A stretch of 64,000 nt of DNA, taken from NCBI RefSeq assembly GCF_008124625.1, contig NZ_VNHM01000001.1, forward strand, positions 186,001 to 250,000, given 5' to 3'. The notes under the pieces are model-generated. The model made no database searches, had not been told where the DNA came from, and was given only the letters and a program-made list of their open reading frames with translations. Position 1 is the stretch's first letter, and each line of letters starts with the position of its first letter. Below are positions 30,698 to 34,694 of this stretch, one piece after another. Origin of the DNA: Desulfallas thermosapovorans DSM 6562 (lineage in GTDB: Bacteria > Bacillota > Desulfotomaculia > Desulfotomaculales > Desulfallaceae). The position numbers and the translations under genes are program-made.

Positions 30698-31972
30698 TTA
30701 ATTCCCTTTGTTCTTTTTATCATTATCTTCCCGGTCCGTTTTATTCCATTCATCCCGTTCAACCTTTTTTTGTCTAGCATGATCTTTTTTAGTTTGGTAA
30801 TCATTCCGTTTGGTAGAATTTGTTTTTCCGGAATAACCAGTAATATCCCGCGGGCTGGAATTCTTTCCGCGGGCCTTATCTTGATTACTTTTATTATCAT
30901 TAATTTTCCCTCGATTATTCTTAACTGCATCGTCCTTCCCGGGGGACCAAGATACTGGCCGGTTTAAATTATTATATCCATCGTATTGATTATTTTTACC
31001 TTGCAGATTTTTTTTGATTGTTTGACCGGGGTTATCACGCTTATCATGCTTATCGGTCTTATCACCGGACTTACCGGGCTTACCGGGTTTATCTCCAGAC
31101 TGACCGGGCTTATTAATTTTATCTCTCTTGCCAGCTTCATCCATATCACCGGATCCAAAAGCAGAGCCGGCCCGGGATTGTTTTGTGATCAAATCGCCAA
31201 CCCGAATGTTTTTATTCGCTTCCAGTACACGAATGTTTCCTTCCTTCAATTCCTGGTTGGTTATTTGCACACCTTTTTTTTGCGCTTCCTGCTGTAACAG
31301 GTAACGACCAGGGCTAACGCCGTGCTCACGGGCTTTTTTCATAGTGTCCAAATCAGTATCAGCCATGATTATTTCGGCCTTAATACCGGACTTGTTTATG
31401 GAGTTGCTGATGGAATTATATATGTAATCATGGACATCTTTTGTGTCTTTTTGCTCTTTAACGTCCTTGACTTTATCACTATTTTTATTTGCTGCTTTCC
31501 CTTTGGTTTTAGTGACCGTGGCCAGCACAAGATTTTCTTTTTCCGGGTTCAAGTATTGATATTCAATACAGCCGGCTATGATCTTCTGCACTCCATCGGC
31601 CAGCGGGTCATGCATAACATTTACCCGTTGTAACAGTTCTTTGCCATCATCATCCACGCCCCGGGCGGAAACAATTATATTATCACCGTTAATCCCCAGT
31701 TCCACGCTGGGGTTAATATCCAAGGCCACATAAGCCACTGCTCGAGGTAGCATGGAATTAAAGGCCAACCAGGCCAACGCCACCACTAAAAAAGAAGCCA
31801 CCGCCCAATAGGAAGCCTTAAACCGGTAAAAAACCGGTCGGGATATTGATATTTCCTGCCCCACCTCAGCACCTTTACGAGGCTTGGACACCTCGAGAAA
31901 CTGACCGTCACCGGTTAACACAATACAGCTTCTTTTTTTAACTTCCATCACCAATCCCCGGTTCGGTCCCAT
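30698..31972 (-). CDS. rsgI: anti-sigma-I factor RsgI family protein
   Basis: Membrane anti-sigma factor for SigI. The 424-residue protein has the cytoplasmic RsgI N-terminal domain (residues about 8-50) and one membrane segment at about 57-75. An extracytoplasmic conserved region follows, with VALDINPSVELGING. The last 150 residues are hydrophilic and low-complexity, rich in Lys, Asp, Asn and Gly, with PGKPGKSGDK-like repeats. There is no recognisable carbohydrate-binding domain, unlike cellulosome RsgI proteins. The ATG lies one codon after the sigI stop, behind GGGGAG, so expression is coupled. Confidence 0.88.
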   Translation of the reverse strand: MGPNRGLVMEVKKRSCIVLTGDGQFLEVSKPRKGAEVGQEISISRPVFYRFKASYWAVASFLVVALAWLAFNSMLPRAVAYVALDINPSVELGINGDNIIVSARGVDDDGKELLQRVNVMHDPLADGVQKIIAGCIEYQYLNPEKENLVLATVTKTKGKAANKNSDKVKDVKEQKDTKDVHDYIYNSISNSINKSGIKAEIIMADTDLDTMKKAREHGVSPGRYLLQQEAQKKGVQITNQELKEGNIRVLEANKNIRVGDLITKQSRAGSAFGSGDMDEAGKRDKINKPGQSGDKPGKPGKSGDKTDKHDKRDNPGQTIKKNLQGKNNQYDGYNNLNRPVSWSPGKDDAVKNNRGKINDNKSNQDKARGKNSSPRDITGYSGKTNSTKRNDYQTKKDHARQKKVERDEWNKTDREDNDKKNKGN

Positions 31973-31975
31973 CAA

Positions 31976-32704
31976 TCAACACTCCCCTTGCGGTAACCTA
32001 ACATATGAATTCAAATAAATAAACTCTTCACGGTAATATAATAATGTGGCTATTCCTATTATATATTTACGCCCCCGTTCCAGTACCTTGCGGCTTATCC
32101 CTGTACCCATCTCCAATTCCCGCAGGGGCAACCTTTTGCTGGCCCGCAAAGTTTCATATAAGGAGCCATGCTCAACAATATAGTAAGCCGCCCGAATTAA
32201 TGTTTGCCTGGTGTCCCGGTGCTTGGGCGAGGATTTTACAAGATCTTTAAATGTGATACCCAGATTGCTTATTTTTTCATTATAATTGTTAATTTCCTCT
32301 ATCCTTTCTCTTTGGGCAGTTTGTTCAATATACTGCTCCCAGGAAGCATCATTTTCCGCCTGGTTGGCGGCACCTTCGAGGGGAGTATTGGACATATGCA
32401 GATCCACCCGGTTCCATCTTGATTCTTTGCGCAAATAGTCGGTCACCCGACTCCTGATCACCATGCGGGCAAAGGCGGTAAAAGGTACTCCCATTTTTTC
32501 TTTAAATCGCTCTATGGCTTCATTAAAAGCTATCAGGCCGATGCTCAGCTCGTCATCATGGTCCCAGCTCAAACTGCGACCGCACAGGCGACCCACCACC
32601 CCGGCGATAAAGGGCTTTGCTTCCGCAATCAACTTTTCCCTGGATGATTCGTCACCTTCCCTGATTTTTTGCAGACATACTTCCACTTCATCCCCAAATA
32701 GCAC
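31976..32704 (-). CDS. sigI: RNA polymerase sigma factor SigI
   Basis: Alternative sigma factor of the sigma-70-like SigI family, linked to heat shock or wall/polysaccharide responses in other Firmicutes. The 242-residue protein shows the region 2 blocks DHDDELSIGLIAFNEAIERF and FTAFARMVIRSRVTDYLRKE (each in part). The C-terminal RLPLRELEMGTGISRKVLERGRKYIIG region (in part, LERGRKYIIG) is SigI-specific and carries a helix-turn-helix. GTG start behind GGGAG. It is immediately upstream of rsgI. Confidence 0.9.
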   Translation of the reverse strand: MLFGDEVEVCLQKIREGDESSREKLIAEAKPFIAGVVGRLCGRSLSWDHDDELSIGLIAFNEAIERFKEKMGVPFTAFARMVIRSRVTDYLRKESRWNRVDLHMSNTPLEGAANQAENDASWEQYIEQTAQRERIEEINNYNEKISNLGITFKDLVKSSPKHRDTRQTLIRAAYYIVEHGSLYETLRASKRLPLRELEMGTGISRKVLERGRKYIIGIATLLYYREEFIYLNSYVRLPQGEC

Positions 32705-32804: not shown

Positions 32805-33773
32805 TCAATCATGCTTATTCCGACAATTTTCACATACTACACAGGTACAGTGGTTATCTCCCCTTTTAAATTTTGTGCTGGCCTTGCAAACAGCACAGTC
32901 CCCCGCCTCGGGCTCACAAGGCTCAACATGAATGATTACCTCCACCTCAGGCAAGCGCCGACGCAAATCCCGTTCAATATTGTCACACAAAGCATGGGTA
33001 GTGCTGATTTTTTTCCCCCGGGGCACAATTAAATTAAAATCCATGTAGCGCTGTGGCCCGGCTTTGCGGGTACGTAAATTTCGGTAATCAACAAATCGAT
33101 CAGCATAAGAATGTAGAATTTCCTTAATCGCCTGTTCTTCACCGTCTGGCAGTCGAACGTCCAGCATATTACCCAGTGATTCCTTCAACAAGTCATAAGC
33201 AGCTTTTATGATTAATAGCGCTACGCCTATGGCAATAAGGGGGTCTACTATATACCAACCGGTAAATTTAATAATCACAATGCCAGCCAGAACGCCAAGG
33301 GACGTTAGAACATCAGTGCGCAAGTGCCAGGCGTCAGCGGCCAGAGCCGGGGAGTCAGTCTTTTTGGCCACTTTCATCAGCTTTGTAGAAACAAATAAGT
33401 TCACAGCAGCTGATAGAACCATCACCATTGCCCCCAACCCCAGCGATTTAACTTCAGTGACTTCATATAATTTGGGTATGGCTTCTTTAATAATCAGGCC
33501 CGCAGCCAGCAATATCAAAATCGCTTCAATTATGGCCGCCAGGTTTTCAAATTTACCATGCCCGTACCTGTGCCGGTCGTCAGCCGGTTTATTGGATTCC
33601 CGCACTGATACGAATGCAATTAAAGCTGCAACTAAATCTAAACCCGAATGGATAGCCTCGGAAATAATACTGATGGAATGCATGGAAAATCCAACGCCTA
33701 ATTTGCCGGCTGTCAATATGGAATTGGATATAATGGAAAGGCGAGCTACCTTTAATTTCTCTTTTGTATACAT
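32805..33773 (-). CDS. cation diffusion facilitator family metal transporter
   Basis: Proton-coupled efflux of a divalent metal. The 322-residue protein has six hydrophobic segments in the first 210 residues and typical CDF metal-site residues (SEAIHSGLDLVAALIAF, AADAWHLRTDVLTSLG). A cytoplasmic domain follows. The end is Cys-rich, with CAVC, CTCVVCENC and a terminal His, which suggests a soft or borderline metal. The ATG at 33773 has AAGGATAAT upstream; another ATG at 33797 is possible. A NiCo-like riboswitch precedes it, so Ni2+/Co2+ efflux is the favoured inference. Confidence 0.88.
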   Translation of the reverse strand: MYTKEKLKVARLSIISNSILTAGKLGVGFSMHSISIISEAIHSGLDLVAALIAFVSVRESNKPADDRHRYGHGKFENLAAIIEAILILLAAGLIIKEAIPKLYEVTEVKSLGLGAMVMVLSAAVNLFVSTKLMKVAKKTDSPALAADAWHLRTDVLTSLGVLAGIVIIKFTGWYIVDPLIAIGVALLIIKAAYDLLKESLGNMLDVRLPDGEEQAIKEILHSYADRFVDYRNLRTRKAGPQRYMDFNLIVPRGKKISTTHALCDNIERDLRRRLPEVEVIIHVEPCEPEAGDCAVCKASTKFKRGDNHCTCVVCENCRNKHD

Positions 33774-33824
33774 ATTATCCTTCCCCTCTATGGACATCCC
33801 GGCACCCCCGCTTTATGCACCCGC

Positions 33825-33930
33825 AAAAAATAATACCCGGGGCCCCTCATCTTAAGAGCCAAGATGAAGTCCCGCGGGTATATCCGCTGCCTTAAGGCCC
33901 GGTCTGTAAAAATCTTCACAGCCTGACTTT
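33825..33930 (-). promoter_or_regulatory. NiCo-type riboswitch with terminator expression platform
   Basis: On the minus strand the leader has a four-way-junction layout: P1 (AAGT 33929-33926 with ACTT 33870-33867), CAGGC, P2 (33920-33915/33910-33905), GACCGG, P3 (GCC 33898-33896/GGC 33891-33889), P4 (GCGG 33887-33884/CCGC 33877-33874) and GGGAC. The CAGGC, CCGG and GGGAC junction segments match my memory of the Ni/Co-sensing NiCo aptamer. A rival hairpin (33881-33833) followed by TATTTTTT uses the same 3' bases, so ligand binding should prevent termination and switch on the CDF gene. Confidence 0.7.
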
Positions 33931-33941
33931 ATGGTTATCTT

Positions 33942-33970
33942 AATATATCATATGCAAAGCTTCAATTCAA
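33942..33970 (-). promoter_or_regulatory. sigma-A promoter of riboswitch-CDF transcript
   Basis: On the minus strand TTGAAT (33970-33965), a 17-base spacer and TATATT (33947-33942). The predicted start near 33935 places the transcript 5' end just before the P1 stem of the riboswitch. Confidence 0.7.
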
Positions 33971-33992
33971 TGATCATGGGAAAAAGTTGAAA

Positions 33993-34694
33993 TTATTCTT
34001 TATAGTCCAGGCCGACATCAATTGTTTCCACGGGGGCGCTTTCATCATCCATATCCCGGGTACTTTCATAGAAATTACCGTCACTGCCCACCACATAGGG
34101 TATGTGATCGATCAGGTCCGTATCATCAATTGGCTCCCCGCTCGGCTCACCGCTACCATAGTAAGCACCGGCTCCGGAAAGCGGAGAATGCTCCTGCCAC
34201 CTGGCCACATCTTGCCAGGCATCCTCGCCGTCGTACTCATTTACATCCGTGGTATCGTTAAAAGTACGGGCAAAGGGCGGCTCCAACACATCCTCTTCCA
34301 CCGGACGAATATTTTTCCTATATGCAGGTTCCTCCATCCGGGACCGGCAATGAACGCACTGGGTAGTATAGGGAACCGCCCGCAGGCGTTCCAGCGGTAT
34401 TTCTTTTCCACATACTTCACAAATACCATAGGTGCCATTTTCCATTCTTTGCCTGGCGTGATCAATGGCCTGTACTTTAATCATGGCATCCTCGCGCAGA
34501 GCAAAGTCTTTACTGCGCTCAAAAACTTCGGTGCCCACGTCAGCCGGGTGTTGATCATAGGTGGACAACTCTTCCACCGAGTCGGATAATGAAACGCCAA
34601 GCCCCCCGTCATCAATATGGTTTATGGTTTGCATTAAATTGTTTTTTTCCTGTTCCAATTGTCGCTTGAAATCATTTAATAATCCCTGTTCCAT
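33993..34694 (-). CDS. yteA: TraR/DksA-type zinc-finger protein, YteA family
   Basis: The 233-residue protein has an N-terminal helical region (residues 1-85) and a DksA-type zinc finger, C92-x2-C95 and C113-x2-C116 (CEVC and CVHC). An acidic C-terminal tail follows, with PYVVGSDGNFYES. This layout matches the YteA sporulation-related family. Its role is not well defined; DksA relatives bind the RNA polymerase secondary channel. ATG behind GGGGG. It is 13 bp after the DUF5665 gene. Confidence 0.9.
   Translation of the reverse strand: MEQGLLNDFKRQLEQEKNNLMQTINHIDDGGLGVSLSDSVEELSTYDQHPADVGTEVFERSKDFALREDAMIKVQAIDHARQRMENGTYGICEVCGKEIPLERLRAVPYTTQCVHCRSRMEEPAYRKNIRPVEEDVLEPPFARTFNDTTDVNEYDGEDAWQDVARWQEHSPLSGAGAYYGSGEPSGEPIDDTDLIDHIPYVVGSDGNFYESTRDMDDESAPVETIDVGLDYKE

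Follow-up and report, generated by a model that had tools for sequence, protein, structure and literature searches.

The leader of the only CDF exporter gene detected in the genome of Desulfallas thermosapovorans DSM 6562 is very probably a compact metal riboswitch on the NiCo scaffold, in which helix P1 has lost its bulged A and bound metal would block termination and thereby switch the exporter on. The underlying observation is real and more than chance, as confirmed by the expectation value of the Rfam NiCo match, by that of a model made from leaders outside the organism's own family, and by covariation. A literature search covering parts of open-licence papers returned no description of such a compact variant.

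Architecture of the leader

Positions refer to the window, that is, the whole stretch of 64,000 nucleotides analysed. The leader lies on its minus strand, with the CDF exporter gene (32805-33797) on one side and a YteA-like gene (33993-34694) on the other, and is composed of the following features.

33942-33970, minus strand: promoter-like TTGAAT-17-TATATT with TG ahead of the -10; predicted transcript start just 5' of P1
33867-33938, minus strand: compact NiCo-type aptamer by model match (R2, 57.4 bits; RF02683, 28.3 bits over 33865-33940)
33925-33929, minus strand: P1 5' strand AAGUC, no bulged A; partner 33871-33867
33924, minus strand: linker A between P1 and P2
33901-33923, minus strand: P2 hairpin GGCUGUGAAGAUUUUUACAGACC with one bulged A, by folding
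33899-33900, minus strand: P2-P3 linker GG, whose guanines are putative metal ligands by our mapping onto the known structure
33889-33898, minus strand: P3 hairpin GCCUUAAGGC
33888, minus strand: linker A between P3 and P4
33874-33887, minus strand: P4 hairpin GCGGAUAUACCCGC
33872-33873, minus strand: P4-P1 linker GG, whose guanines are putative metal ligands by the same analogy
33867-33871, minus strand: P1 3' strand GACUU; with the preceding GG it makes up the GGGAC reused by the terminator
33835-33879, minus strand: competing intrinsic terminator hairpin, -25.9 kcal/mol by folding; its 5' arm overlaps the P4 3' strand and GGGAC
33825-33833, minus strand: terminator U tract UUAUUUUUU, directly after the hairpin
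32805-33797, minus strand: CDF cation efflux gene (PF01545, 6.1e-51; PF16916)

Most of this anatomy had been anticipated by the initial annotation, which described a four-helix junction with CAGGC, CCGG and GGGAC segments, a terminator reusing the 3' half of P4 together with GGGAC, and a promoter of 17-bp spacing just before P1. All of it was recovered. The three segments are found on the minus strand at 33925-33921, 33902-33899 and 33873-33869, the minimum-energy fold of a transcript of 71-75 nt consists of P1-P4 around a junction, the predicted terminator takes up the P4 3' arm and GGGAC, and a promoter-like element is placed as described. The promoter motif alone is weak, because a 401-base region contains three such sites where 1.1 would be expected. 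Among the 81 compact leaders introduced below, 63 score as having an extended -10, a count made without a null. When the transcript is folded as it grows, P1 is already lost at 95-100 nt and the terminator has formed at 105 nt. For the 163-nt leader the folding energy is -55.3 kcal/mol (z -2.33), a value equalled by one of 200 shuffles. A simple terminator scan of 33700-34100 found no terminator, probably because it demands an unbroken stem and a short loop.

Relation to the NiCo family

A scan with the Rfam NiCo (czcD) covariance model, RF02683, had been suggested at the outset as a check and was positive yet below threshold: on the leader alone (a 251-bp stretch) the model matched at full length with 28.3 bits (E 1.4e-4) against a gathering cut-off of 37. 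Seven matches were obtained genome-wide at E up to 10; the leader ranked first (E 3.8e-4), and the next had 18.6 bits. No Rfam family reached its gathering score anywhere in the 64-kb window. The match is significant, but falls outside the curated limit. The likeness to RF02683 comprises four helices around a junction, linkers A, GG, A and GG, the CCGGG and GGGAC segments, a terminator overlapping P4 and GGGAC, an anatomy from which ON control is predicted, and metal exporter genes downstream, in this case a CDF gene that directly follows the leader and is the putative target of control. Given that the leader scores below 37 bits and has no counterpart of the bulged A that the Rfam consensus shows in P1 (GAgC/GAC), it is not filed under RF02683. 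A riboswitch of some other class was ruled out, with no other bacterial family among the Rfam matches; the yybP-ykoY Mn2+ riboswitch, which is also a metal-responsive RNA with a four-way junction (PMC6754395, partial text), is absent among the matches of the leader up to E 10.

It is extremely improbable that the match is accidental and the RNA non-functional. Such a reading could point to the sub-threshold score and to the NiCo matches that 7 of 14 control genomes yield at E up to 10, but none of the 14 yields one at E up to 0.01, and both covariation and a second model argue against it. This model, R2, was made from 34 compact leaders, all from outside the window's family, and gives the window's leader 57.4 bits (E 4.4e-14) with the next match in the window at 11.2 bits; in the whole genome the leader stands at E 2.0e-12 and the next match at 18.2 bits. 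R2 is held out in letters, not in discovery, its 34 leaders having been found with RF02683 or with R1, a model of 11 compact leaders that includes the window's. Within the window's family it scores 11 compact leaders at 43.1-64.8 bits, and on 43 loci of the bulged-A type it matches 37 at E up to 10, the best at 31.3 bits.

Covariation, which had likewise been put forward as a check, is positive in P1-P4 of 81 compact leaders (80 distinct), aligned from sequence only, and lies beyond all 500 shuffles. In this alignment 91.3% of cells pair and 13 of 18 pairs change on both sides. Cells with both-side changes number 130 against 41.6 +- 6.4 in shuffles that leave the relatedness of the leaders in, a count that leans towards structure because the models used to find the leaders themselves reward pairing; five measures were reached by none of the 500 shuffles, and shifting the structure by 1-3 columns leaves no more than 38 such cells. 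The inner P1 pairs are uninformative here because GUC and GA were selection criteria and the pairs are invariant, and the outermost P1 pair is poorly conserved, being unpaired in 50 of the 80 sequences.

The terminator is similarly widespread. One that overlaps P4 and GGGAC and ends in a U tract is found in 79 of the 81 compact leaders (L143 and L155 fail; L numbers denote loci), and it is the energy, with a median of -22.1 kcal/mol against -9.6 in shuffled controls, rather than mere presence that carries weight, because 278 of 405 shuffled controls pass the loose criterion. These figures supersede an earlier, looser count (71 of 81 leaders, 182 of 405 shuffled). So strong and conserved a terminator is what an ordinary attenuator would have, one devoid of its own metal site and controlled, for example, by a protein or by transcription speed. 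That is nonetheless highly unlikely: the A/GG/A/GG linkers and the paired P2-P4 are superfluous for termination, and they resemble the solved metal-binding junction.

What defines the compact form

The leader had been described as a possibly divergent NiCo member on account of its short P2 and P3. The divergence is borne out, but the short helices are not its sole basis, the key change being the loss of the P1 bulged A throughout a group of leaders. In ordinary NiCo RNAs, P1 has G-A-N-C opposite G-A-C with one bulged A (N being G, U or A), whereas in compact ones GUC stands opposite GAC in a perfect helix. The U next to the lost A pairs with the A of GGGAC, which makes for a more regular helix next to the junction. 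A NiCo-like element upstream of a CDF exporter, the core of the original proposal, survives as a prediction on the strength of the sub-threshold model match and covariation.

Among 183 classed leaders, the P1 states are GUC in 86, GAGC in 57, GAUC in 24, GAAC in 14 and unclear in 2, some of them set by eye (L118, L160, L164, L173, L175, L177, L179, L252, L265, L270, L274, L275 and L277) and L134 left out. RF02683, which has had none of our GUC training, found 83 leaders: 50 GAGC, 13 GAUC, 13 GAAC, 5 GUC and 2 unclear. The GAUC leaders look like steps between the bulged-A and GUC types.

The junction linkers are retained. In 89 unfiltered GUC matches of R1, the P2-P3 linker is GG in 84, AG in 4 and GC in 1, and the P4-P1 linker GG in 83, AG in 5 and UG in 1. 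Both are GG or AG in 87 of the 89, the remaining two (L163, L169) having no CDF gene behind them. This pattern would suit N7 coordination, with the proviso that R1 itself favours GG. Across the strict set of 81, the P3-P4 linker is A in all and the P1-P2 linker A in 80 and G in one; the GUC and GG/AG columns of this set are not free evidence, because it was selected on them.

Other differences from RF02683 concern P2 and P4. P2 is shorter in the compact form (median 17 against 30 nt, from 81 compact and 76 bulged-A leaders, with a 6-nt value for L262, probably a parsing slip, inside the median) and opens with GGCGA in 1 of 81 compact but 49 of 76 bulged-A leaders; P4 opens with NCGG in 71 of the 81, where the Rfam consensus reads GCAG. 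The P2 length and GGCGA differences are tendencies, not rules. That a short P2 always accompanies loss of the bulged A was ruled out by L254, L257, L268 and L273, which keep the A with a P2 of 10-12 nt, and the converse by L274 and L277, which lack the A yet have an ordinary-looking P2 (by eye).

Two aberrant leaders were seen in passing. L065:1501-1572 is a compact leader in which GGGCC replaces GGGAC; with no 90-aa ORF detected downstream, it may be a decayed copy. L261 is a NiCo match seemingly without most of P3 (by eye).

Surveys and distribution

RF02683 was run on 113 genomes of the order (the class sample is identical), where 31 genomes matched at E up to 0.01 and 15 exceeded the cut-off, and on a phylum sample of 398, where 113 matched and 71 exceeded it. 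R1 matched in 49 of the 113 and 75 of the 398 at E up to 0.01, some of these matches being weak noise or ordinary NiCo RNAs. In the loci inspected, bulged-A leaders score 28.6-79.5 bits with RF02683 and compact ones 23.3-37.1, so that the score alone separates the two types incompletely. Compact leaders in the order survey precede CDF genes 52-80% identical to that of the window; L031, L033 and L034 (24-25 bits) have no CDF gene and look like noise.

The strict set was drawn from R1 matches. Applied to 159 of 179 loci (20 duplicates and noise loci excluded), R1 gave 142 matches, of which 89 fit the GUC pattern. Five were dropped by name (L008, L163, L167, L169, L174) and two (L065, L159) by a filter requiring GG or AG linkers and a P1 3' strand starting with GA, which left 82; removal of L160, whose true P1 is GAGC, left 81. 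L130 and L131, with altered P1, are outside the 81. Of these 81 compact leaders, 60 were put through the Rfam search at its gathering cut-off, and a single one, L022 (37.1 bits), passed. Of the five GUC leaders found by RF02683 itself, L252 (44.1) and L270 (38) exceed the cut-off and L274, L275 and L277 lie below it.

The compact group was found mainly in Bacillota. A DNA pattern covering the 3' portion of the RNA, which misses other forms because it requires GCAGCGG, picked out 61 stretches in named genomes, and 35 of these have GUC(A/G)GG at most 60 nt upstream, 34 in records named as Bacillota (Desulfallas, Desulforamulus, Desulfotomaculum and Syntrophomonas among them). L208, from a Chloroflexi bin, carries GUCAGG some 50 nt upstream, together with a long P2, a CDF gene of 47% identity behind it and only three clear P1 pairs; either the variant is more widely spread or the contig is misplaced. 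L205 and L209, both in Bacillota, read GUCAAG. GAGC, GAUC or GAAC was seen by eye in bins of Chloroflexi, Deltaproteobacteria, Elusimicrobia, Armatimonadetes, Spirochaetaceae, Kiritimatiellae and Thermoleophilia. Pattern matches in Streptomyces (twice) and Mycolicibacter have no CDF gene and look like chance.

Both types occur at separate loci in at least nine genomes among the loci examined. In all nine the GUC leader stands before a CDF gene; the other type is followed by a P-type ATPase gene at L008, L011 and L101 and by various genes elsewhere.

The exporter gene and its neighbours

A search of the organism's genome with PF01545 gave a single match, the gene behind the leader. Its start is more likely the ATG at 33773 than that at 33797, judging from the strong ribosome-binding site AGGGGAAGGA ahead of the former (33771-33797 region) and from relatives (L022, L060) without a counterpart of the latter. 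Metal site A of the protein reads HDHD. The closest solved relatives, FieF/YiiP, belong to the same CDF family (137 bits to FieF), but their site A is D-D-H-D, in place of which the alignment shows H-D-H-D in this protein. An MntE-type manganese exporter (NF052621) was rejected at 226 bits, where more than 500 is needed, and with site A as HDHD.

A CDF gene stands behind 83 of 86 GUC leaders: 71 of the 86 precede one at least 40% identical to the window's, a proportion inflated because R1 was trained on leaders before such genes, and 12 precede other CDF genes. The remainder comprise one P-type ATPase and two leaders without an assigned gene (L147, at a contig end, and L155). The 95 bulged-A leaders precede 9 CDF genes at least 40% identical, 50 other CDF genes, 28 P-type ATPases (called by similarity to the L093 protein, PF00690) and 8 unassigned genes.

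On a quick tree of 110 CDF proteins, with long branches flagged and the L131 label (GAAC) doubtful, the GUC state (76 rows) needs 7 changes against a shuffled mean of 29.3, and at least six are forced by well-supported branches. GUC marks one large clade and the lineages L069/L072/L073/L079, L142/L149 and L080/L138/L146. Conceivably, though this is put forward only tentatively, the compact GUC RNAs are a second, functionally separate class on the NiCo scaffold, with a metal preference or set point of their own, which may have moved onto, or arisen before, several CDF lineages and which coexists with canonical switches running P-type ATPases and other genes.

Genes upstream were listed for the 81 leaders, and eight were run against Pfam: four belong to the CobT family, and glycine dehydrogenase, SecD/SecF, DksA/TraR zinc-finger and E1-E2 ATPase account for one each. 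Such neighbours give no general hint on the metal, the four CobT cases all being in one genome family; at these loci (L066, L070, L075, L150) the compact leader and its CDF gene come immediately after a cobalamin riboswitch and a CobT-family gene (PF02277).

Several other neighbours were recorded. Directly downstream of the window's CDF gene, on the same strand, is a SigI/RsgI pair (30698-32704). At L018, L109, L110 and L280 an ordinary (GAGC) NiCo leader stands before the gene of a small membrane-like protein, 122-139 aa long (two such proteins run against Pfam gave nothing above cut-off). Leaders of this type are also followed by a His-rich 72-aa protein at L019, L109 and L110, and by a kinase-like ORF (by eye) at L019, L021, L109, L110 and L137. 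All are unusual company for a metal riboswitch.

Proposed mechanism and the question of the ligand

In the proposed mechanism, RNA polymerase would start just 5' of P1, and a divalent metal (Ni2+ or Co2+, possibly Fe2+ or Zn2+) would bind the GG linkers and hold the junction together. The P4 3' arm and GGGAC would thereby be kept out of the terminator hairpin, and transcription of the CDF exporter gene could proceed; in the absence of metal, the terminator would form. The junction fold, its covariation, the overlapping terminator and the gene context were computed directly, and from them and from the known family we infer metal binding, ON logic and the identity of the metal. In the known NiCo RNA, G46, G47, G87 and G88 are direct N7 ligands of two Co(II) ions, and in czcD RNA metal binding promotes readthrough by the same antitermination logic (PMC7689651, partial text). 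By analogy, the GG linkers of the window's leader would occupy places that match these ligand guanines and are putative counterparts of them. An ON switch for the exporter, which had been predicted from the outset, is the best reading because the terminator overlaps P4 and GGGAC and because antitermination is known for czcD; it stands as a prediction from anatomy. Ni2+ or Co2+ as ligand is carried over from the NiCo family, where binding is cooperative, and would apply here by analogy.

Whether the scaffold has retained that ligand is a separate matter. The compact form may instead sense Fe2+, Zn2+ or Mn2+, a possibility that we regard as real and yet rather doubtful. Consistent with it are the loss of the P1 bulged A, the genomes that hold both types at separate loci, and the response of canonical czcD RNA to Fe(II) and Zn(II) in vitro, the natural metal of NiCo/czcD RNAs being itself disputed (PMC7689651, partial text). 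Set against it, the putative ligand guanines are mostly unchanged, and site A reads HDHD in 73 of 76 CDF genes behind GUC leaders and 33 of 34 behind other leaders on the tree, an agreement that gives no hint of a different metal. The four cobalamin riboswitch and CobT loci, from one family, lean towards cobalt. The reading that we retain as most likely is a compact ON switch for metal export on the NiCo scaffold, with Ni2+/Co2+ or another first-row divalent metal as its putative ligand.

Implications

In the Desulfotomaculum group and its relatives, NiCo-type control over metal export is undercounted by Rfam. More broadly, the question has been raised of whether aptamer variants extend the range of metal ions sensed by the known types (PMC10043782, partial text). 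The compact form is a natural, well-populated variant in which there is one defined structural change and the putative metal-binding core is largely unchanged. Further, compact and ordinary forms sometimes share a genome, and a comparison of the two RNAs would bear directly on how the P1 bulge relates to the choice of metal.
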